Positions 33,786 to 45,041 are shown, numbered from the stretch's first letter. The stretch is DNA of 64,000 bases from Streptomyces glaucescens (GCF_000761215.1 NZ_CP009438.1:6490501-6554500); one strand, 5' to 3'. Numbers and translations are program-made. Notes: generated from the sequence alone by a model not told the origin.

Positions 33786-33868
33786 AGTGGTTCCCTTCGG
33801 TGGACGGGCCGCGACGGCGGCACCACTGCGACGCACCCGGGCCGTCGAACGTTCGGTACCCTCGCGCC

Positions 33869-34651
33869 ATGTCCCGCCACGTCCTGGTCCTCGGCGGCAC
33901 CACCGAGGCCCGTCTGCTCGCCGCCGAGCTGGCGGTGCGGCCGGACACGCGCGTGACGACCTCGCTGGCGGGCCGGGTGACCCGCCCCGGGGCGATCGCC
34001 GGCGACGTACGCGTGGGCGGCTTCGGCGGCGCCGACGGGCTGGCCGAGTGGCTGCGCGCCCACCGCGTGACCGCCGTCGTCGACGCCACCCACCCCTTCG
34101 CCACGGCCATCACGGCCAACGCGGCGCGCGCCGCGGCCGTGACGGGCCGGCCGCTGGCGGTGCTGCGCCGGCCCGGCTGGCGCCCCGGCCCCGGCGACCA
34201 CTGGCACCCGGCCGGCTCACTGGCCGAAGCGGCGCGGCTCCTGCCGGACCTGGGCCGCCGGGTCCTCCTCACCACCGGCCGCATGGACCTCGCGGCGTTC
34301 GCGCACCTGGACCGGCTGCACTTCGTCGTACGGTCCGTGGAGCCCGCCGAGCCGCCGGCGCCGCCGGACATGGCGCAGGTGCTGGCCCGGGGGCCGTTCA
34401 CGGTGGCCGACGAGCTGGCCCTGCTGCGCGGACACCGGATCGACGTGCTGGTGACGAAGGACAGCGGGGGAGCGGCGACCGCCGCCAAGCTCACCGCGGC
34501 CCGTGAACTCGGCCTGCCCGTCGTGGTGGTACGGCGCCCGCCGCTGCCGGACGGCGTGAGCGTGGTCCCCGGTGTCGCACAGGCCCTGGAGTGGCTGGGC
34601 CTCGACCCGGACACCGCCCCACCGGAGGTCGGCCGAACCCCGGCTGAGTGA
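33869..34651 (+). CDS. cobK: Precorrin-6A reductase (CobK/CbiJ)
   Basis: A 260-residue NADPH-dependent reductase of the cobalamin (corrin ring) pathway. It shows the family start HVLVLGGTTEARLLAAEL, VVDATHPFATAITANAARAA, LTTGRMDLAAF and the C-terminal VTKDSGGAATAAKLTAARELGLPVVVVRRP. The start at 33869 removes 23 non-conserved residues. Only one other cobalamin gene, cobF, is in the window, 8 kb away, so the pathway is scattered here. Its 3' end runs into a 15-bp tandem duplication. Confidence 0.95.
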   Translation: MSRHVLVLGGTTEARLLAAELAVRPDTRVTTSLAGRVTRPGAIAGDVRVGGFGGADGLAEWLRAHRVTAVVDATHPFATAITANAARAAAVTGRPLAVLRRPGWRPGPGDHWHPAGSLAEAARLLPDLGRRVLLTTGRMDLAAFAHLDRLHFVVRSVEPAEPPAPPDMAQVLARGPFTVADELALLRGHRIDVLVTKDSGGAATAAKLTAARELGLPVVVVRRPPLPDGVSVVPGVAQALEWLGLDPDTAPPEVGRTPAE

Positions 34652-34715: not shown

Positions 34716-35345
34716 TCAGCCGGTCCCGGCCGCCCGTCCCCGCGGGGCGTGCGTGCCGACGGCGATCGGAGCGGGCTCGGCGGCGATGTCGAGGCCGCAG
34801 GTGCCGGTCGCCGTCACACCGTCCTTGCCCACCATCCGCACCGTGGTCCGGCCGTCGCGGTCCTGGCTGTAGGCGGCGGTGCAGACGAGCTGGCGCAGCG
34901 CTGTCCCGTCCAGTCCGCCGAGGGCCAGCGGAAGGCTCACCGTGACGTCCGCGTCCGGGGACGTCACCACCCCGACGCCCCCGGCGGTGACCCGGGGGAG
35001 CGAGGTGCCGAGACCCGCTGACCTCTCGGCGGGTCCGGGACCGCTGAGCAGGGCGGCGATCGCCTGCTCCGTCGAGACCGGCTCGGTCGGGCCGTCGGGT
35101 TCCTCGTACCCCGCCCCGAATCCGGACGATTCCGTCACCGACCGGCTCACCGGGCTCAGGGCCCCGTCGGGGGCGCGGAAGAAGAGCAGCGCGTCGTACC
35201 CGGGGTTGACGAAGGCCTGTACCGAGGCGGGACCGCCCGCCTCGATGACATCGGTCTCCTGGATGCCGCAGCCGCCGAGCAGCAGGGCGGCCGCCACCGG
35301 CCCCGCGACGCCGGCCGCCCGGCCCCGCGCCGGCCCCCGCCTCAT
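34716..35345 (-). CDS. Lipoprotein of the two-component operon
   Basis: A 209-residue lipoprotein. A short signal peptide ends in LLGGCG, and the mature part includes QAFVNPGYDALLFFRAPDGALSPVSRSV and a Thr/Asp/Gly-rich C-terminus with two cysteines (LVCTAAYS, TGTCGLDI). It overlaps the histidine kinase stop by ATGA and is the last gene of the FemX-MurJ-regulator-kinase operon. By position it resembles CseA, the lipoprotein that tunes the CseBC envelope-stress system of Streptomyces, though sequence identity cannot be judged here. It likely modulates the kinase outside the membrane. Confidence 0.8.
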   Translation of the reverse strand: MRRGPARGRAAGVAGPVAAALLLGGCGIQETDVIEAGGPASVQAFVNPGYDALLFFRAPDGALSPVSRSVTESSGFGAGYEEPDGPTEPVSTEQAIAALLSGPGPAERSAGLGTSLPRVTAGGVGVVTSPDADVTVSLPLALGGLDGTALRQLVCTAAYSQDRDGRTTVRMVGKDGVTATGTCGLDIAAEPAPIAVGTHAPRGRAAGTG

Positions 35346-37144
35346 CCGTCGTCCTCCTCCGCGTGCAGCGGTATCTCGACGGTGAAGACGGCACCGCCGC
35401 GCGGCAGGTTCCCCGCGCGGATCGTCCCGCCGTGCAGCCTGACGTTCTCCAGGGTGATCGCGAGCCCCAGCCCGCTGCCCGCCGAGCGGGTACGGGCCGC
35501 GTCGGCCTTGTAGAAGCGGTCGAAGATGTGCGGCAGCACCTCGGGCCGGATCCCGGGCCCGCTGTCGGCGACCTCCGTGACCAGCACCGGCACACCGTGG
35601 GACCGCGCCTCCACCCGCAGCCGCACGGTGACGGGCGCGCCGCCGTGCCGCAGCGCGTTGCCGACGAGATTCGCCACCACGATGTCGAAGCGGCGCGGGT
35701 CGAGCCGGGCGCGGATGCCGCCGGGCAGTTCGGCGCGGACCCGGCCGTCCGTCCAGTGCCGGTTCTCCAGGGTCTTGCGGATGGCCTCCGCCGCGTCGAT
35801 CTCGTCGGTGTGCAGCTCCGCCGCCCGCGCGTCGAAGCGGGAGATCTCCATCAGGTCCTCGACCAGCACGGCGAGCTTGCCCGTCTCGGAGCTGATCAGC
35901 CGGACCGCCCGGGCGGTGTCGGGGTCCAGCCGGCCCGCGTCCTCGTCGAGGACCTCGGTGACGGCGAGCATCCCGGCGAGCGGGGTGCGCAGTTCGTGCG
36001 AGACGTCGGAGGCGAAGCGGCGGGCGCGTTCCTCGGCCCGGCGCAGCTCCTGCACGGAGTGCTGGAGCTTGCCGGCCGACTCGTTGAACGTGTGGGCGAG
36101 GTCGGCCAGTTCGTCACTGCCGCGCACCGGGATGCGGGTGTCGAGCCGGCCGCTGCCCATGGACTGGGCGGCCTGGCGCAGCTCCCGCACCGGACGCAGC
36201 ACGCTGCGCGCGGCGAGCAGACCGGGCAGCAGGGCGATGGCGAGGCCGGGCAGGGCGCCGTCACGGGCGGCGGTGAGCAGCGCGTCGACGTTGACCTGCT
36301 CGTCGGTCATCCGCATGACGGCGTAGAGGACCAGCCGGGTGGGCAGCACGCCCTCGGGGCCGGTCCGGAAGACGGTCGGCATCGCGATGGTCAGATACGG
36401 CACGCCGTCCTTGACGACCCGTTCGAAGCTGCCGTGCGGATCGGCGTGGGCGGCGCGGCGCAGCTCCGGGGTGATGACGGTGGAGACGGGGCTGGTGCCG
36501 GACGAGGCGCGGATCGAACCGTACTCGGCGAACACGACCCAGGGGTGCGGCTTGCCCTTGCGGGCGAGGTCGCGCAGCACCTCCTCCAGCCCTTCCGCCT
36601 GCACGGGCAGGACGAAACCGGTCTGCTGGACCTGGTCGCGGAACGACGAGACCGCCGTGTCCTGCGCGGTCTGCAGCAGGGCGTTGCGCGCCTCGCGGTA
36701 GGTCAGCGCGGCGGTGGTGCCGGCACTGACGGCCGCGACCAGCAGGAACGCCAGGACCAGCCGCGTGCGCAGTCCGAACGCCCGGGCGCGCCGCAGCGGC
36801 CGTCGCCCGGGAGCGGACCGGCGTCGCCGGCTCCGGTCCGCGGGAGGCGGCCCGCCGGCGCGCTCCGGCGCCCGGCCGTCGCGAGCCGGGGCGCCGTGGA
36901 GACCGTCACCGCCGGTGCGGCCGGCTGTCCGGGGGCCCTCCGCCCGGCCGTCGTACGTCCCGGCCGCCCGCCTCGCGCCGGGCACGCCACTGCCCGGGCC
37001 CCCGGTTCCGTCCCGGCCCCCGGTTCCGTCCCTGGCGCCGGTCTCGCCCCGGCCCCCGGTCCCGCCGCTGCCCCCGGACCCGTCCCCGCCCCGGCCGGTG
37101 CCCTTGCCGCGCAGTACCCGGCCGAAGGCGGTGCGCCCGGTCAC
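35342..37144 (-). CDS. Sensor histidine kinase, envelope type
   Basis: A 600-residue kinase. A long Gly/Arg/Thr-rich cytoplasmic head (about 120 residues) precedes a first membrane helix (RLVLAFLLVAAVSAGTTAAL), an outer sensor domain, a second helix, a HAMP linker, the dimerisation domain with phospho-acceptor His383 in SDVSHELRTPLAGML, and an ATPase domain with NLVGNALRHGG, DSGPGI and GSGLGLAI. The GTG at 37144 overlaps the regulator stop as GTGA; the frame remains open further upstream but runs antisense-overlapped into the regulator gene. The partner is the adjacent OmpR-type regulator. The gene order suggests sensing of cell-wall status. Confidence 0.92.
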   Translation of the reverse strand: MTGRTAFGRVLRGKGTGRGGDGSGGSGGTGGRGETGARDGTGGRDGTGGPGSGVPGARRAAGTYDGRAEGPRTAGRTGGDGLHGAPARDGRAPERAGGPPPADRSRRRRSAPGRRPLRRARAFGLRTRLVLAFLLVAAVSAGTTAALTYREARNALLQTAQDTAVSSFRDQVQQTGFVLPVQAEGLEEVLRDLARKGKPHPWVVFAEYGSIRASSGTSPVSTVITPELRRAAHADPHGSFERVVKDGVPYLTIAMPTVFRTGPEGVLPTRLVLYAVMRMTDEQVNVDALLTAARDGALPGLAIALLPGLLAARSVLRPVRELRQAAQSMGSGRLDTRIPVRGSDELADLAHTFNESAGKLQHSVQELRRAEERARRFASDVSHELRTPLAGMLAVTEVLDEDAGRLDPDTARAVRLISSETGKLAVLVEDLMEISRFDARAAELHTDEIDAAEAIRKTLENRHWTDGRVRAELPGGIRARLDPRRFDIVVANLVGNALRHGGAPVTVRLRVEARSHGVPVLVTEVADSGPGIRPEVLPHIFDRFYKADAARTRSAGSGLGLAITLENVRLHGGTIRAGNLPRGGAVFTVEIPLHAEEDDG

Positions 37145-37824
37145 AGCGGGCCGAAGCGGTAGCCGAAGCCCCGCAGCGTCTGGACGTAGCGCGGGGTGCC
37201 GGACTCGTCCTCGATCTTGTTGCGGAGACGGCGGACGCAGGCGTCCACCAGGCGCGCGTCGGCGTGGTAGCTGTGCTCCCACACGTGTTCCAGGAGCTGC
37301 TGCCGGCTGAACACCTGCTCGGGCGCGGCGGACAGGTGCAGCAGCAGCTTCAGCTCCGAGGGGGCGAGGGTCAGTCGCCGGCCGGCCTTGGTGACGCTCA
37401 GCCCGGCCCGGTCGATGGTGAGGTCGCCGTGCACCTCCGTGGCCGGCCGGCCCGGCGCGACGTCCTCGATGCGGCGCAGCACCGCCCGGATCCGGGCCTC
37501 GATCACCTCGGGACGCGCGGGCTTGACGATGTAGTCGTCGGCCCCCGCCTCCAGGCCCACGATGACGTCGAAGTCGTCACCGCGCGCGGTCAGCATGATG
37601 ATCGGCAGCTGGCTGTCCTCGCGGACGCGCCGGCAGACCTGGACGCCGTTCAGGCCGGGCAGCATCAGGTCCAGCAGGAGCAGGTCGGGGCGGAACCCGG
37701 CGAGCGCGGCGAGTCCGGCCTCGCCGGTCGCGGCCGACAGCACCTCGTGGCCGCGGCGGCGCAGACCGAGCTCGACCCCTTCGCGCACGGCGGGGTCGTC
37801 CTCGATGAGGAGTACGCGGGGCAT
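37141..37824 (-). CDS. OmpR-family response regulator (AfsQ1/CseB-like)
   Basis: A 227-residue DNA-binding regulator. The receiver domain has the acidic pair in LLIEDD, phospho-acceptor Asp52 in LLLLDLMLPG, and Lys in YIVKPARPE. A winged-helix output domain follows, with LTLAPSELKLLLHLSAAPEQVFSRQQLLEHVW and TLRGFGYRFGPL. ATG 37824 follows GGGAG; a TTG three bases earlier is possible. It lies 21 bp after murJ and overlaps the kinase gene. From memory the sequence resembles AfsQ1 and CseB of S. coelicolor. Confidence 0.93.
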   Translation of the reverse strand: MPRVLLIEDDPAVREGVELGLRRRGHEVLSAATGEAGLAALAGFRPDLLLLDLMLPGLNGVQVCRRVREDSQLPIIMLTARGDDFDVIVGLEAGADDYIVKPARPEVIEARIRAVLRRIEDVAPGRPATEVHGDLTIDRAGLSVTKAGRRLTLAPSELKLLLHLSAAPEQVFSRQQLLEHVWEHSYHADARLVDACVRRLRNKIEDESGTPRYVQTLRGFGYRFGPL

Positions 37825-37845
37825 CAACAGTCTCCCAGTCGGTGG

Positions 37846-39606
37846 TCAGCGCCGGGTCACGCGCCGGCGCGCGCCGGCGATCAGCGCGTCGAGTTCGGTC
37901 AGGCGCAGCGGCCGCGCCAGCAGCGCGAACACGAGCACGACGACGGCCGCGCCGGCCGCCGCCGCGGCCACGGAGCCCGCCCGTGCGCAGCCGGCGGCCG
38001 CCAGGTGGCCGAGCAGGGTGGCGGGCACGGCGGCGGCCAGCAGCCGGGCGTGCGCCGTGACGGCGGACGACCGCCAGGGCCGGGCCACCGCCAGCCGGCG
38101 GCCCAGCACCAGGGCGGTGACCGCCCAGCCCGCGCACAACGCCAGCGAATACGCCGCCGCCATCCCCGTGACGGCCCAGCGGGCCGGCAGGAGCTGGGCG
38201 GCGGCCGTGGACAGGGCTGCGTTCACCGCGACGATCACCAGGTTGAGCAGGAAGGGCGTACGGGTGTCGGAGAGCGCGTAGAAGGTGCGGGACAGCACGT
38301 ACTGGCCCGACATGGCGACGAGCCCCGGCGCGAACGCCATCAGGATCCCGGCCATGGCGGCGGTGTCGCCGGTGCTGGTCCTGCCGTGGCCGAAGACGAG
38401 CGCCATCACCGGCTGGGCGAGGGCGAAGAGCATGCAGGCGGCCGGGACGACGGCCGCGGCCGAGGTGCGCAGGGCCTGCGAGACGTCGCGCCGCAGCGCC
38501 CCGGTGTCGGAGTCGGCGGCCGCCGCGCTCATCCGGGGCAACAGCGCGGTCACCAGGGAGACCGTGATGATGCCGTGCGGGACGACCCACAACGCGTAGG
38601 CGTTGTTGTACGCGCTGTACCCGGGGCCGCCGGCCAGGCCCGCGTCGGTGGCCAGCCGGGTCGTCACCCAGTAGGCGGCCTGGTTGGCGAGGACCAGCAG
38701 CACCAGCCAGCCGGCCGACCGCAGCGGGCGGGTCAGTCCGCTGCCCCGCCAGTCGAAGCGCGGCCGCCAGCGGAAGCCCGCTCCGCGCAGGGCGGGGACG
38801 AGGGCGAGCGCCTGGACGGCGATCCCGGCGGTCGTCCCCCACCCGAGCAGCGCGGTCTCGGCCGCGGTGAGGGTGTCCCCGCCGCCCGGGCCGAGTGCCA
38901 GGAAGAGACCGAACACGGCGACGACGACGAGGTTGTTGAGGACCGGAGCCCACATCATCGCGCCGAACCGGCCGCGGGCGTTCAGCACCTGACCGAGCAG
39001 TGTGAACAGGCCGAGGAAGAAGATCTGCGGCAGGCAGTAGCGGGCGAACGCGGTCGTCATCGCCGCCTGTTCGCCGCCGTAGCCGGTGTACGCGTCGACG
39101 ATCGCGGGCGCGGCCCACACCGCGGCGGCGGTGAGCGCCAGCAGGGCGGCGACGCAGACCGTGACGAGCCGGTCGGTGTAGGCGGCGCCGCCGTCCGCGT
39201 GTTCCTTGGCCGCCTTGACCAGCTCGGGCACGAAGACCGCGTTCAGCGCGCCGCCGAGGAGCAGCATGTAGACGATGGTCGGCAGGGCGTTGCCGACCGC
39301 GTAGCCGTCGGCGGTCGGCCCGATGGTGCCGAGCGCCGCGGCGACCACGGCGGACCGGCCGAAGCCGGTGGCCCGGGACACGAGCGAGCCGGCGGCCATC
39401 AGCACACTGCTGCGTGCCGCCGAGACCGGCTCGCCCCCGCCACCGGTCGTGCGGGGAGCCCGCCGCCCCGCGCCGGCCGGCGCGCCGGGGACCGTCTTCG
39501 CGGCGCCGGCCGGCGTGCCGGGGACCGTCTCCGTGGCGCCGGCCGGTGTACGGGGGGCCGTCCCCGCTCCGTCGCCGGTCGCCGGGGGCACCGTCGGCGG
39601 CCTCAT
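37846..39606 (-). CDS. murJ: MurJ-type lipid II flippase
   Basis: A 586-residue MATE/MVF-fold membrane protein with about 14 hydrophobic segments. It has AAGSLVSRATGFGRSAVVAAALG, the early loop ADGYAVGNALPTIVYMLLLGGALNAVFVPEL, and LPQIFFLGLFTLLGQVLNARGRFGAMMWAPVLNN, all typical of MurJ/MviN. It would flip lipid II, the peptidoglycan precursor, to the outer face. The cytoplasmic N-terminus contains 11-residue repeats (GTPAGATETVPGTPAGAAKT). It overlaps the FemX gene by ATGA. The principal Streptomyces murJ normally lies near oriC with trxA/parB, so this may be a second copy (inference). Confidence 0.92.
   Translation of the reverse strand: MRPPTVPPATGDGAGTAPRTPAGATETVPGTPAGAAKTVPGAPAGAGRRAPRTTGGGGEPVSAARSSVLMAAGSLVSRATGFGRSAVVAAALGTIGPTADGYAVGNALPTIVYMLLLGGALNAVFVPELVKAAKEHADGGAAYTDRLVTVCVAALLALTAAAVWAAPAIVDAYTGYGGEQAAMTTAFARYCLPQIFFLGLFTLLGQVLNARGRFGAMMWAPVLNNLVVVAVFGLFLALGPGGGDTLTAAETALLGWGTTAGIAVQALALVPALRGAGFRWRPRFDWRGSGLTRPLRSAGWLVLLVLANQAAYWVTTRLATDAGLAGGPGYSAYNNAYALWVVPHGIITVSLVTALLPRMSAAAADSDTGALRRDVSQALRTSAAAVVPAACMLFALAQPVMALVFGHGRTSTGDTAAMAGILMAFAPGLVAMSGQYVLSRTFYALSDTRTPFLLNLVIVAVNAALSTAAAQLLPARWAVTGMAAAYSLALCAGWAVTALVLGRRLAVARPWRSSAVTAHARLLAAAVPATLLGHLAAAGCARAGSVAAAAAGAAVVVLVFALLARPLRLTELDALIAGARRRVTRR
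39470..39568 (-). repeat. Three 33-bp tandem repeats in the murJ N-terminus
   Basis: Units begin at 39470, 39503 and 39536, each opening GCGCCGGCCGG. They encode 11-residue repeats with the pattern T-V-P-G-x-P-A-G-A. The first two units are nearly identical and the third is diverged. They extend a probably disordered cytoplasmic tail without shifting the frame. Confidence 0.8.
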
Positions 39607-40799
39607 CGGCGGTTCAGGTACGCCTGGAAGGCGCGGTACAGCGTCTGGTTGGCGGTGCCGCCCAACGGTCTCTCCCATTCCCCCAACGTCTCGACGACCT
39701 GTCCGCCGGTACCGAGCTTCCATCGCAGCAGGCCGTACGCACGTTCGTCAGGATCGAGAGTGGAGGGTACCCCGCGCATGTCGTAGACGTCAGCGCCGAG
39801 GGCGTGGGCGTCCAGCAGCATCCGCCACTGCAGGGCGTTGGAGGGCCGCACCTCACGGCGGTGGTCGGCCGAGGCACCGGTCTGGTACCAGACCCGGCGG
39901 CCCACCGTGATCATCGTGTGGGCGGCGAGTATCTCCCCGCGGTGGCGGGCGAGGTACAGCTTCATCCGGCCCGGCTCCTCCGCGTTGAGCGCCGCGTACT
40001 GGCGCTGGTAGTAGCCGAGCGAGCGACCGAGCCGGAAACCGTCGCGCTCCTCGGTGACGCGCAGCAGCCGGTAGAACTCGGGCAGTTCGGCGGCGCTGCC
40101 CACGACGACCTCCACGCCCTCCTTCTGGGCGCGCCTGACGTTCCGCCGCCATTCCTGGTTGAGCCCGGACCACAGGTCCTCGGTGCCGCGTCCGGCGAGC
40201 GGCACCTGGAAGACGTGGCGCGGCTGGGCGTCCCCGTCGTCGCCGGTGCCGTCACCGCCGCAGCGGCGCCAGCCGCGGGCCCGCAGCCGTTCGGCGACGG
40301 CGGTGCCGAGCGGGTCGACCTCGCTGGCGAGCACGTCCCCGAGCCGTCTGCCCGGGCCGGTGAGCGACTTCAGCAGGGCGGCGTCCCAGCGCCGGTACGC
40401 GGGCGAGGGGCCGATCCGTACGGCGAAGGCGCCCGCCCGGCGGAGCTGTTCCAGCAACGGGGCGAGCCAGTCGTCGATGCCGGGGTCCGCCCAGTCGGCG
40501 ACGGGTCCCTCGGGGAGGTAGGCGAAGTACTTGCGGGTGCCGGGGAACTGCCGCAGCAGCACCAGGGCGACGCCGGTCAGGTCACCGGCCTGCGGGTCCG
40601 GTCCCCAGCCGAGGAGCCGCGGTTGCCAGCCCTCTTTGACGTCGGACCAGGACGGGCACTGCAGGAAACCGGCGCCGAGCGCAGCGCCGCGCGGGGACGC
40701 GAGGAAGGCGCGGTACGTCTCGGCGGTCACGGGTCCGAGCCTGAGGTCCCGGTTCCGTTCGTCCTGCCGGCGGCCGGGCGGTACGAGCAGCGCTGACAC
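39603..40799 (-). CDS. FemX/FemAB-type peptidoglycan bridge aminoacyltransferase
   Basis: A 398-residue protein of the FemAB family, with two GNAT-like halves. Seen are FLQCPSWSDVKEGWQPRLLGWG, KYFAYLPEGPVADWADPGIDDWLAPLLEQLRRAGAFAVRIGPSP, the central LNQEWRRNVRRAQKEGVEV and RPSNALQWRMLLDAHALGADVYDMRGVPSTLDPD. In Streptomyces a FemX enzyme adds the single glycine of the peptidoglycan bridge to lipid II using glycyl-tRNA. GTG 40799 follows GGAGAAGGAGAGG. It is the first gene of an operon with murJ and the two-component genes and is divergent from an L,D-transpeptidase. Confidence 0.9.
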   Translation of the reverse strand: MSALLVPPGRRQDERNRDLRLGPVTAETYRAFLASPRGAALGAGFLQCPSWSDVKEGWQPRLLGWGPDPQAGDLTGVALVLLRQFPGTRKYFAYLPEGPVADWADPGIDDWLAPLLEQLRRAGAFAVRIGPSPAYRRWDAALLKSLTGPGRRLGDVLASEVDPLGTAVAERLRARGWRRCGGDGTGDDGDAQPRHVFQVPLAGRGTEDLWSGLNQEWRRNVRRAQKEGVEVVVGSAAELPEFYRLLRVTEERDGFRLGRSLGYYQRQYAALNAEEPGRMKLYLARHRGEILAAHTMITVGRRVWYQTGASADHRREVRPSNALQWRMLLDAHALGADVYDMRGVPSTLDPDERAYGLLRWKLGTGGQVVETLGEWERPLGGTANQTLYRAFQAYLNRR

Positions 40800-41024
40800 G
40801 TCGTGGAGCCTCTCCTTCTCCCCGGCTGTCGCGGGGACGGAAGGGATGCTCACAGCCCCCCGTGACCGTCCCGCGCGGCGAATGTGACCGGACGATGACC
40901 GTTCCCCACCAGTCGCCGTCACAGTGAACCGACGCCGCTGACCTGGGCATCTCCGGATTTAGAGTCACGAAGGTCACGACGCTCCCGCCCTGTCCTTCCT
41001 CATCCGCCCGCCACGGAGGTCCAG

Positions 41025-42278
41025 TTGCCCCGCACACCCGCGCCCGCCCGCACCCCGGGTCCCGCCGCCCGCACCCCGGCCCGAGCCGCCCGCATCCCCG
41101 CCCTCGTCCGCACCGCCGTCGCCGCCGCCCTGCTGGCGCCGCTCGCCGCCTGCTCCGCGAACTCCGGCCCCGCCGCGGCCGGGGACACCGGCACGTCCGG
41201 GAAGGACGGCGCGGACCGTCCCGTCACCGTCACGGTCACCCCCACGGGACGGCAGGCCGGCGCCGGGAAGCCGGTCGAGGTCACCGCGACGGGCGGCCGC
41301 CTCACCTCGGTGACCGTCACCGACGCCGAGGGCCGCAGACTCACCGGGAAGGTGGGCCCCGACGGCCGCACCTGGACCTCCGACCGCAAGGCCGTGCCCG
41401 GCACGGCGTACGCGGTCACGGCGGCGACCCGCACCGAGGGCGGCACCCCCGGCACCACCCGGGCCTCCTTCGCCACCGCCCCGGCGGACAAGGTCAACAA
41501 GGTCGACTGGCGCCCGGGCACCGGCACCACCGTCGGCATCGCCCAGCCGATCTCGCTCGTCTTCGACCACCCCGTCGAGAACAAGGCCGAGGTCGAGAGA
41601 CAGCTCAAGGTCACCACCTCCAACGGCACCGAGGGCTCCTGGGGCTGGATGCGGGACTGGTCGGGCCGGGACCGGGTGGACTGGCGGCCCAGGTCCTACT
41701 GGAAGCCCGGCACCGAGGTCACCCTGAACGCCGCGCTGAACGGCACCGACTCGGGCACCGGCGGCTGGTTCGTCCGCGACTACACGACCACCTTCACCAT
41801 CGGCGCCCGGCAGGTCGTCGAGGTCGACCTCGACCGTCACCACCTGACGCTGGTCCGCGACGGCAGGACCGTCCGGCGCATCCCGGTCTCCGGCGGCACG
41901 CCGGGCGGTGACAAGCGCTCCTGGCGCGGGACCGCGGTCCTCATGGCCAAGGAGGGGACCATCAACATGAACTCCGAGACGGTGGGCCTCGGCGACGCCT
42001 ACGACAAGATGGTCGACTACTCGATGCGGCTGACCTGGTCGGGCATGTACGCGCACGCCGCCCCCTGGAACGCCCGCTGGTTCGGCAACGCCAACCGCAG
42101 CTCGGGCTGCATAGGCATGAGCGACGCGGACGCGGCCTGGTTCTACGGCCAGGTGCGCCCAGGAGACCCGTTCGAGATCACCGGCGAGGACACCAAGGGC
42201 GTCGTCGCACCGGAGAACGGCTTCGGCGAGTGGAACCTGTCCTGGACCGAGTGGCAGCAGCGGAGCGCGCTGCGCTGA
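41025..42278 (+). CDS. L,D-transpeptidase lipoprotein (YkuD domain with Ig-like domains)
   Basis: A 417-residue exported enzyme that makes 3-3 peptidoglycan crosslinks. It has a long Pro/Arg/Thr head, a signal ending in lipobox LAACS, two Ig-like domains (about residues 65-150 and 155-260), and a C-terminal YkuD domain with MYAHAAPWN and the catalytic Cys362 in NRSSGCIGMSD. The TTG start has GGAGG just upstream. It corresponds to the Ldt type common in actinomycetes. Divergence from the FemX-MurJ-sensor operon suggests shared control, and a strong terminator follows its stop. Confidence 0.93.
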   Translation: MPRTPAPARTPGPAARTPARAARIPALVRTAVAAALLAPLAACSANSGPAAAGDTGTSGKDGADRPVTVTVTPTGRQAGAGKPVEVTATGGRLTSVTVTDAEGRRLTGKVGPDGRTWTSDRKAVPGTAYAVTAATRTEGGTPGTTRASFATAPADKVNKVDWRPGTGTTVGIAQPISLVFDHPVENKAEVERQLKVTTSNGTEGSWGWMRDWSGRDRVDWRPRSYWKPGTEVTLNAALNGTDSGTGGWFVRDYTTTFTIGARQVVEVDLDRHHLTLVRDGRTVRRIPVSGGTPGGDKRSWRGTAVLMAKEGTINMNSETVGLGDAYDKMVDYSMRLTWSGMYAHAAPWNARWFGNANRSSGCIGMSDADAAWFYGQVRPGDPFEITGEDTKGVVAPENGFGEWNLSWTEWQQRSALR

Positions 42279-42315: not shown

Positions 42316-43089
42316 TCAGCTGCGCTCCGGGTTGCGCCGGAGCAGATACGTGTCCATGATCCAGCCCTTGCGCTCCCGGGCCTCGGCCCGCAGCCGCTCG
42401 ATGCGGGGCGCGGCCTCGGCGATCGGGCCGGACACCGTGATCTCGTCCGGGGTGCCGAGGTAGGCGCCCCAGTAGATGTGGATGTCCTGGTCCGCGTACC
42501 GCCGGAAGGTCTGGTGGGCGTCGAGCATCACGACGACGTCGTCGACGCCCTCAGGGAAGCCCTCGGCGAGCCGCCGCCCGGTGGTGATCTGGACCGACCC
42601 GGCCACCCGGTTCAGCCCCGTCCGGTGCCGGGCGACCAGCGAGGAGACGCTGCTGATGCCCGGCACGACGTCGTACTCGAACGTCACGACGCCCCGGCCC
42701 AGCACCTCCTCCAGGATGCCCAGCGTGCTGTCGTACAGCGACGGGTCGCCCCACACCAGGAACGCGCCCGTCTCGTCCTCGCCCAGCTCGTCGACGATCA
42801 GCCGTTCGTAGATGCCGGCGCGGGCACTGCGCCAGTCCCCGACGGCCGGGGAGTACGCCGCACCGCCCGCGCGACGGTCCCGCTCCGGGTCGCGGGCCTC
42901 CACCACGCGATACGTCCCCTCCGGTACGTGCGTCTCCAGCATGTCCCGGCGCAGCCGGGTGAGGTCGGACTTCACCTCGCCCTTGTCCAGCAGGAAGAAC
43001 ACATCCGTGCCGCGCAGCGCCCGCACCGCCTGGAGGGTCAGCTGGTCGGGGTCGCCCGCGCCGATACCGATGACATGAATCTTTCGCAC
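42316..43089 (-). CDS. cobF: Precorrin-6A synthase (deacetylating), CobF
   Basis: A 257-residue methyltransferase of aerobic cobalamin synthesis, which methylates C-1 of precorrin-5 and releases acetate. It shows the tetrapyrrole methylase start KIHVIGIGAGDPDQLTLQAVRAL, the SAM loop FLVWGDPSLYDSTLGILEEV and VPGISSVSSLVARH, and the CobF-type end GWIMDTYLLRRNPE. It is followed upstream by a DUF309 gene on the same strand with a 63-bp gap. It is not clustered with cobK (33869). Confidence 0.95.
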   Translation of the reverse strand: MRKIHVIGIGAGDPDQLTLQAVRALRGTDVFFLLDKGEVKSDLTRLRRDMLETHVPEGTYRVVEARDPERDRRAGGAAYSPAVGDWRSARAGIYERLIVDELGEDETGAFLVWGDPSLYDSTLGILEEVLGRGVVTFEYDVVPGISSVSSLVARHRTGLNRVAGSVQITTGRRLAEGFPEGVDDVVVMLDAHQTFRRYADQDIHIYWGAYLGTPDEITVSGPIAEAAPRIERLRAEARERKGWIMDTYLLRRNPERS

Positions 43090-44012: not shown

Positions 44013-45041
44013 TCACGGTGCGGAACCGGAACTGTGCTGACGGAGTTCCAGCGGTCTCAGGACGCCCGCGCCGGCCGGGTGGTGACGGGCATGGGCGCTG
44101 GTGGCGTCGATCGCCGCTCTCGCCGCCCGTTCGATCAGCGAGATGCCGTCCCGCTCGGACGCGTTGCCGCTGCTGAGCACCGAGACCAGGTACCGGCGCC
44201 CGTGCAGCGTGACCTGTCCGATGCTGTTGATGACCCACCGTCCGGTCGTGGTGCGCTGCAGCCAGCCGTTCTTGAGCGACCACCGGGGGGATGCGGCCGA
44301 CACCCCCCAGTCCTGGCCTTCCTCGATGTCGCCCATCAGCTCCCGGACATAGGCCTTGGACTCCGGGTCCAGCCCCTCCCGCGTGCGCGCGGCCTCCGTC
44401 GCACAGTGGTGGAAGATGCACCGCAGCAGCCGGACCTGGTCCGTCGCTGTCGTTCGGGTGAGGCCCCAGTGGTTGCCGGGGCCGCCATGGGTCGAGGAGA
44501 GCCCCAGCCGTTCGTTCGCCGCGTCGAGGCCTTCTCCCTTGCCGATCACCCGCCACAGGAGGTTCGCCGCGTCGTTGTCGCTCGTCCTGATCATCGCCTC
44601 GGCGGCCCGGCGCTCCCCGGCCGTCAGGTCGCGGCCCTGGTCCTGCGCCTGGAGCAGCAGTGCCACGAGGATGTTCACCTTGCTGATGCTCGCCGTGGTG
44701 AACCACGCGTCGCCCCGGTAGGACGCGATCCTCGGGTCGGCGCTGTTCACGTCGAGCACGGCCACCGCCAACCGGGCGTCACCGCCCATCAGTACCGGCT
44801 CGAGCGACCGCGCGAGGGCCACGCCGAGGTCGGTCGACGGTGGCCCCGCCATCGCGTCGGCCGGCGCATTGCTCCGCGGGAGCGACGGCTGCACCTCGTC
44901 GGACGGGCCGGCCGAAGAACAGGCGGTGAGCGACGCGATGACCACGGCGGTGGCGCAGGCCGTCAGGGCGTGCGGGCGGAGGAAGGCGCAACGGGGTCTG
45001 CTGGACTCCTGATACGCCTTGTCGGGCTGTCCCTCAGGCAT
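44013..45041 (-). CDS. Lipoprotein with class A beta-lactamase fold
   Basis: A 342-residue exported serine hydrolase. A signal peptide ends in the lipobox LTAC (Cys41). The class A motifs are S118-I-S-K121, S154-D155-N156 and K257-N258-G259, with Asn in place of the usual Thr/Ser of KTG. No clear omega-loop Glu was recognised. It may therefore be a poor beta-lactamase or a DD-peptidase-like/penicillin-binding paralogue. It lies just beyond the tRNA and its terminator, on the opposite strand, and stands alone. A palindromic sequence at 45092-45109 lies upstream. Confidence 0.85.
   Translation of the reverse strand: MPEGQPDKAYQESSRPRCAFLRPHALTACATAVVIASLTACSSAGPSDEVQPSLPRSNAPADAMAGPPSTDLGVALARSLEPVLMGGDARLAVAVLDVNSADPRIASYRGDAWFTTASISKVNILVALLLQAQDQGRDLTAGERRAAEAMIRTSDNDAANLLWRVIGKGEGLDAANERLGLSSTHGGPGNHWGLTRTTATDQVRLLRCIFHHCATEAARTREGLDPESKAYVRELMGDIEEGQDWGVSAASPRWSLKNGWLQRTTTGRWVINSIGQVTLHGRRYLVSVLSSGNASERDGISLIERAARAAIDATSAHARHHPAGAGVLRPLELRQHSSGSAP

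Follow-up and report, generated by a model that had tools for sequence, protein, structure and literature searches.

A conserved Streptomyces gene block joins an AfsQ-related two-component system to spare cell-wall enzyme genes around a shared DNA element

Within a 64,000-nucleotide stretch of DNA (the window, at 6.49-6.55 Mb on a contig of 7.45 Mb from a Streptomyces close to S. glaucescens, to judge from 97% identity in FemX), we identified a block of genes in which a FemX-like aminoacyltransferase, a second MurJ (MurJ2), an OmpR-family response regulator (RR), a sensor histidine kinase (HK) and a lipoprotein are encoded head to tail (34716-40799), with an L,D-transpeptidase (LDT) gene divergent from them. 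Judging from sequence comparison, the gene order, the overlaps and an element between the two arms are conserved as a unit beside the closest paralog of AfsQ1, and we consider it probable that the block is an autoregulated envelope-stress module which drives spare wall enzymes in both directions, with MurJ2 as an optional component. We found no published description of this block in the literature searched.

Gene content and layout of the block

Coordinates and Pfam/NCBIfam matches confirmed what an earlier note on this DNA had described, namely FemX, MurJ, regulator, kinase and lipoprotein genes lying head to tail with 4-bp overlaps or a 21-bp gap (Table 1). The overlaps fall between the FemX stop and the MurJ2 start (39603-39606), between RR and HK (37141-37144) and between HK and the lipoprotein gene (35342-35345), while the 21-bp gap separates MurJ2 from the RR ATG at 37824. 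MurJ2 passed the NCBIfam cutoff for TIGR01695 (338.5 bits vs. 235.55), as did FemX the Pfam cutoff for PF02388 (FemAB; 110.7 bits vs. 24). The divergent gene, previously read as an L,D-transpeptidase, indeed encodes Big_10 and YkuD domains (the latter at 73.5 bits, Pfam), and the catalytic H...SGC motif is present in 79/81 of its orthologs. The wall roles of FemX, MurJ2 and LDT are those predicted from family membership. For FemX, the start is most likely the GTG at 40799 and not 40922, because an open frame beginning at 40922 would run across the conserved regulatory element. The block separates cobK (33800-34651) from cobF (42316-43089); besides the window, only L064 and L067 among the loci compared have cobF next to the block.

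Table 1 Features of the block and its intergenic region, in window coordinates
Feature	Coordinates	Strand	Basis or remark
Lipoprotein with GerMN-like domain, AfsQ3 paralog	34716..35345	-	lipobox LLLGGC, profile match to AfsQ3
Sensor histidine kinase (HK), AfsQ2 paralog	35342..37144	-	HAMP/HisKA/HATPase_c
OmpR-family response regulator (RR), AfsQ1 sister	37141..37824	-	Response_reg + Trans_reg_C
MurJ2, accessory lipid II flippase homolog	37846..39606	-	TIGR01695
FemX-like branch-forming aminoacyltransferase, GTG start	39603..40799	-	PF02388
Conserved cis element, ~80 bp	40846..40923	-	footprint in 71 loci
TGTGAC	40923-40918	-	part of cis element
GTCAT-N6-GTCAC	40899-40884	-	core of cis element
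Third GGTCA, then TGTGAGCAT	40854-40846 (TGTGAGCAT)	-	TGTGAGCAT likely extended -10 of FemX operon
TAGAGT	40960..40965	+	likely -10 of LDT promoter
L,D-transpeptidase (LDT), lipoprotein, TTG start	41025..42278	+	Big_10 PF17964 + YkuD PF03734

Conservation across Streptomyces

Scanning a genome collection with the block FemX yielded 241 relatives. The top 80 all came from Streptomyces, and at nearly all of these named loci the order LDT / FemX-MurJ-RR-HK-lipoprotein is preserved. Across these and some further loci, the 4-bp overlaps recur at FemX>MurJ in 78/79 loci, at RR>HK in 75/82 and at HK>lipoprotein in 79/81—counts that are slightly inflated, as some genomes enter twice (e.g., L045 and L139)—and the modal MurJ>RR gap among loci is 20 bp. 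Such near-universal overlaps support the proposal, made in the earlier note, that sensor and peptidoglycan genes share one transcript. The flanking genes form several unrelated sets, the largest of them common to ~20 loci, and these differences indicate that the block stays together as its surroundings change.

Median identity to the window is 86% for RR, 84% for FemX, 80% for HK, 77% for both LDT and MurJ, and 50% for the lipoprotein. Divergence of FemX correlates with that of LDT, MurJ and the lipoprotein (r = 0.86-0.92 vs. <=0.19 when permuted); RR correlations are distorted by a locus from S. spinoverrucosus (L097, 9007-13216), which has FemX-MurJ without RR, HK or lipoprotein and whose RR and HK matches are not orthologs. 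An LDT-like match at the same locus, possibly spurious, does not have the catalytic motif.

A conserved regulatory element between the divergent arms

The region between LDT and FemX contains a near-invariant element with the pattern TGTGAC..CTG..G..AACGGTCATSGTCCSGTCACATTCGCCG..CGG..CGGTCA....GCTGTGAGCMT across loci, the seed pattern being matched by 71 loci and small variants occurring in most of the other 13. At its core lies GTCAY-N6-GTCAC, the first unit of which ends in T (GTCAT, not GTCAC) in 63/71 loci. The spacing of this core is equal to that of the published AfsQ1 site, GTnAC-N6-GTnAC (PMC6988585), and the afsQ1-sigQ intergenic region of this genome carries GTGAC-N6-GTGAC. In 77 loci the core and a downstream TGTGAnnnT are held at a rigid spacing of 39 nt, although the start codon lies at varying distance; on the LDT side, TA[CG]AGT occurs in 67/81 loci at variable position. 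In L132 and L137, where the intergenic region is longer, the element is present twice, and TGTGAnnnT is gone from the copy nearer LDT, in keeping with a role of this motif as the FemX-side -10. The S. spinoverrucosus locus without RR, HK and lipoprotein is also without the element, a single natural control.

A scan with the sigma-70 consensus found no promoters and is uninformative at this GC content. An RNA element in the LDT-FemX intergenic region was also considered and rejected, given that there is no Rfam match in the block and that the conserved stretch lies mostly upstream of the likely transcription start.

Genome-wide searches using only the element (allowing <=1 mismatch) gave positives in 8/41 and 7/41 genomes, with zero control matches. 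Counting each genome once, the element is present in 13/65 Streptomyces and 0/15 other genomes, and all 13 positive genomes carry the block at the element site; by this sequence measure the block is carried by about one in five Streptomyces tested and is identifiable from the DNA of the element alone. One extra copy of element and promoter was detected (G049; L222:9239, G049:C3:359238), accompanied by a relic of the FemX start, and in the genomes tested no further near-exact site rose clearly over background. That the conserved element lies between the arms and, apart from this relic, only at the block supports the earlier suggestion of a self-contained circuit. A wider regulon was rejected, sites with 1-3 mismatches being close to background in most genomes, while weak further targets are possible. 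The extra copy in G049 precedes a small secreted protein without Pfam match, and that genome also carries a normal block, without murJ.

The regulator, kinase and lipoprotein are related to AfsQ

In a phylogenetic tree, RR grouped as the sister of AfsQ1 (support 100/97), followed by CseB and then MtrA, and its recognition helix RLVDACVRRLRNKIED is near-identical to the AfsQ1 helix RLVDACVQRLRAKVED. HK is 41% identical over 503 aa to AfsQ2 of this genome, and a profile comparison matched the lipoprotein to AfsQ3 of the same genome (97.4% probability, E = 1e-11). By these comparisons RR, HK and lipoprotein are paralogs of AfsQ1-AfsQ2-AfsQ3 and not AfsQ itself; the genome's own afsQ locus, with its adjacent sigma gene, is separate from the block (L168). 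The earlier note had seen in the layout a resemblance to CseABC, for which AfsQ turns out to be the better comparison. On the CseB profile NF041733 the RR scored 260.2 bits, below the curated cutoff of 350, whereas the genome's real CseB scored 386 bits; given this score, the sister relationship to AfsQ1 and a true sigE-cseA-cseB-cseC located elsewhere in the same genome with its sigma gene present (L170), membership in CseABC was rejected. At the block, which is flanked by cobK and cobF, there is no linked ECF sigma factor gene.

Comparison with known systems places the block among, but apart from, several lipoprotein-associated or wall-associated two-component systems. It is like AfsQ1-AfsQ2-AfsQ3 (sigQ) in RR kinship, HK and lipoprotein homology, gene order and a similar putative DNA site, but it has LDT in the place of the divergent sigQ, no linked sigma factor, and an operon shared with FemX and MurJ2. 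Its element moreover implies autoregulation, in which it would differ from AfsQ, where control of the operon by AfsQ1 itself is reported to be absent (PMC6988585). SigE-CseABC, in which CseC/B responds to wall-damaging agents (PMC9739842), likewise combines an RR-HK pair with an associated lipoprotein, but the block is without sigE and its lipoprotein follows the kinase, whereas that of Cse precedes the regulator. VanRS/vanJKHAX is similar in that a two-component system is clustered with a FemX-type enzyme (VanK); the block differs in adding MurJ, an L,D-transpeptidase and a GerMN lipoprotein, and vanHAX is absent among the block genes and their immediate neighbours in the window. The RR-HK-lipoprotein order and OmpR ancestry are shared with MtrA-MtrB-LpqB, but MtrA branches outside AfsQ1 and CseB in the RR tree. 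Homology of the block lipoprotein to LpqB was rejected, as the profile comparison was not significant.

Predicted folds of the lipoprotein and the kinase sensor

A lipobox-like motif is present in 73/75 lipoprotein orthologs. The block lipoprotein alone had no Pfam/NCBIfam family match, Pfam Germane was matched in 5/28 orthologs (best E = 3e-5), and the AlphaFold model (pLDDT 77) matched the GerMN domains of B. subtilis GerM with a Z of 10.2, the next rows being at <=5.9. As modelled, the lipoprotein has a GerMN fold. It is likely a modulator of the kinase, by analogy with AfsQ3, which has been described as a possible partner of its own kinase (PMC9739842).

The model of the HK sensor (pLDDT 71) matched WalK-type and other PAS/CACHE sensor domains at Z of about 9-12.6, with the WalK extracellular domain ranking first and others close behind. 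The modelled extracytoplasmic domain is PAS/CACHE-like, and since the alternatives score so closely, no ligand is inferable.

MurJ2 is a second copy, probably lost in several lineages

A check for a second murJ copy placed the housekeeping gene at 3.866 Mb (49% identical to MurJ2), making the block murJ the second copy. The block MurJ proteins formed a single clade apart from housekeeping MurJ in a quick tree that carried a long-branch warning. Two further FemX genes are also present in the genome, at 0.51 Mb (51% identical) and 3.85 Mb (48% identical).

MurJ is missing, with the other genes kept, from L096, L100, L102, L105, L113 and L223, the last possibly representing the genome of L102 a second time. 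Because the FemX-RR gap of L105 retains sequence reading as a murJ 3' end and ATGA is retained at some FemX stops in murJ-less loci, we infer that murJ2 was deleted and not originally absent. By these sequence comparisons MurJ2 is an optional part of the module, and its loss in several lineages where the rest survives suggests that lipid II flipping is not the main purpose of the circuit. The earlier view of the system as tied to flipping is weakened accordingly. In five murJ-less loci the sequence ahead of RR was inspected; no conserved element was apparent there except the ribosome-binding site, and a weak internal promoter before RR may exist.

Proposed mechanism and alternatives

In the mechanism that we favour, a disturbance of the wall would be sensed by the PAS/CACHE-like extracytoplasmic domain of HK, with the GerMN lipoprotein modulating the kinase, possibly as a brake. 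Phosphorylated RR would then bind the GTCAY-N6-GTCAC repeats and activate both divergent promoters, raising LDT as a 3-3 crosslinking enzyme on one side and, on the other, FemX as a brancher of lipid II, the second flippase where it has been kept, and RR, HK and lipoprotein themselves, the latter amounting to positive autoregulation. By analogy only, the S. coelicolor L,D-transpeptidase SCO4934 affects sensitivity to wall antibiotics (PMC6593405). A bolder version, which we put forward tentatively and on balance doubt, is a relocatable, self-switching wall-bypass module, so far seen in Streptomyces only, that would detect one specific fault in the supply or display of lipid II. Through one bidirectional element it would then deploy a substitute branch-former, flippase and 3-3 crosslinker, which together would replace steps blocked by wall antibiotics.

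An autoregulated module of this kind would join a sensing system and the enzymes most likely under its control in one unit that changed genomic neighbourhood, and, being small and equipped with its own readout, would allow a direct test of what AfsQ/Cse-type kinases and lipoproteins sense. The block also suggests that extra copies of FemX, MurJ and L,D-transpeptidase in antibiotic-producing bacteria have a role that is dedicated and regulated.

Other readings of the same block deserve comparison. Spare copies of essential steps in one regulated operon, together with a patchy distribution and varying genomic context, would also fit a cassette that protects its host from one particular lipid II-targeting antibiotic, functionally like VanRS-VanK, in which the duplicated FemX and flippase accept altered or drug-bound precursors; we regard this as unlikely, as the block holds no precursor-altering genes such as vanHAX, is very uniform across distant species, and showed no link to an antibiotic cluster in a non-systematic search. 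A wall module serving development (sporulation or germination) instead of a stress response seems to us improbable. Streptomyces generally sporulate, yet the element is absent from most of those tested, and no developmental genes are linked to the block, although GerMN domains are known from sporulation proteins (GerM) and MtrAB-LpqB, a related system type, has been linked to sporulation in Streptomyces (PMC5487470).

AfsQ1 could itself bind the block element, since the recognition helices are so similar. A reading in which AfsQ1 or some other OmpR-type regulator (MtrA, PhoP) is the one to bind the element, with the two-component system of the block mainly controlling genes elsewhere, draws on this similarity and on the same half-sites in AfsQ1's own intergenic region. 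We give it little weight: the element occurs only with the block, whereas AfsQ1 is a separate system, RR and element are missing together from the S. spinoverrucosus locus, and no other near-exact sites stood out clearly from background in the genomes tested. That the genes are accidental neighbours with no shared function is scarcely credible, as the gene order, the overlaps and the element are all conserved in many different genomic surroundings, which argues strongly against chance, and FemX divergence tracks that of LDT, MurJ and the lipoprotein far more closely than in the permuted comparison. The autoregulated stress module is the reading that we prefer.

Additional observations

A Beta-lactamase2-family, lipoprotein-like serine hydrolase is encoded near the block (44013-45041), and a third, distant MurJ-like protein (29% identical to MurJ2) lies inside a 1395-aa open frame elsewhere in the genome (G000:C1:2833854-2835485). 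The N-terminus of HK (36790-37144) carries a Gly/Arg-rich extension of ~118 residues before the first membrane helix; in orthologs such as that of L044 this extension is much shorter.
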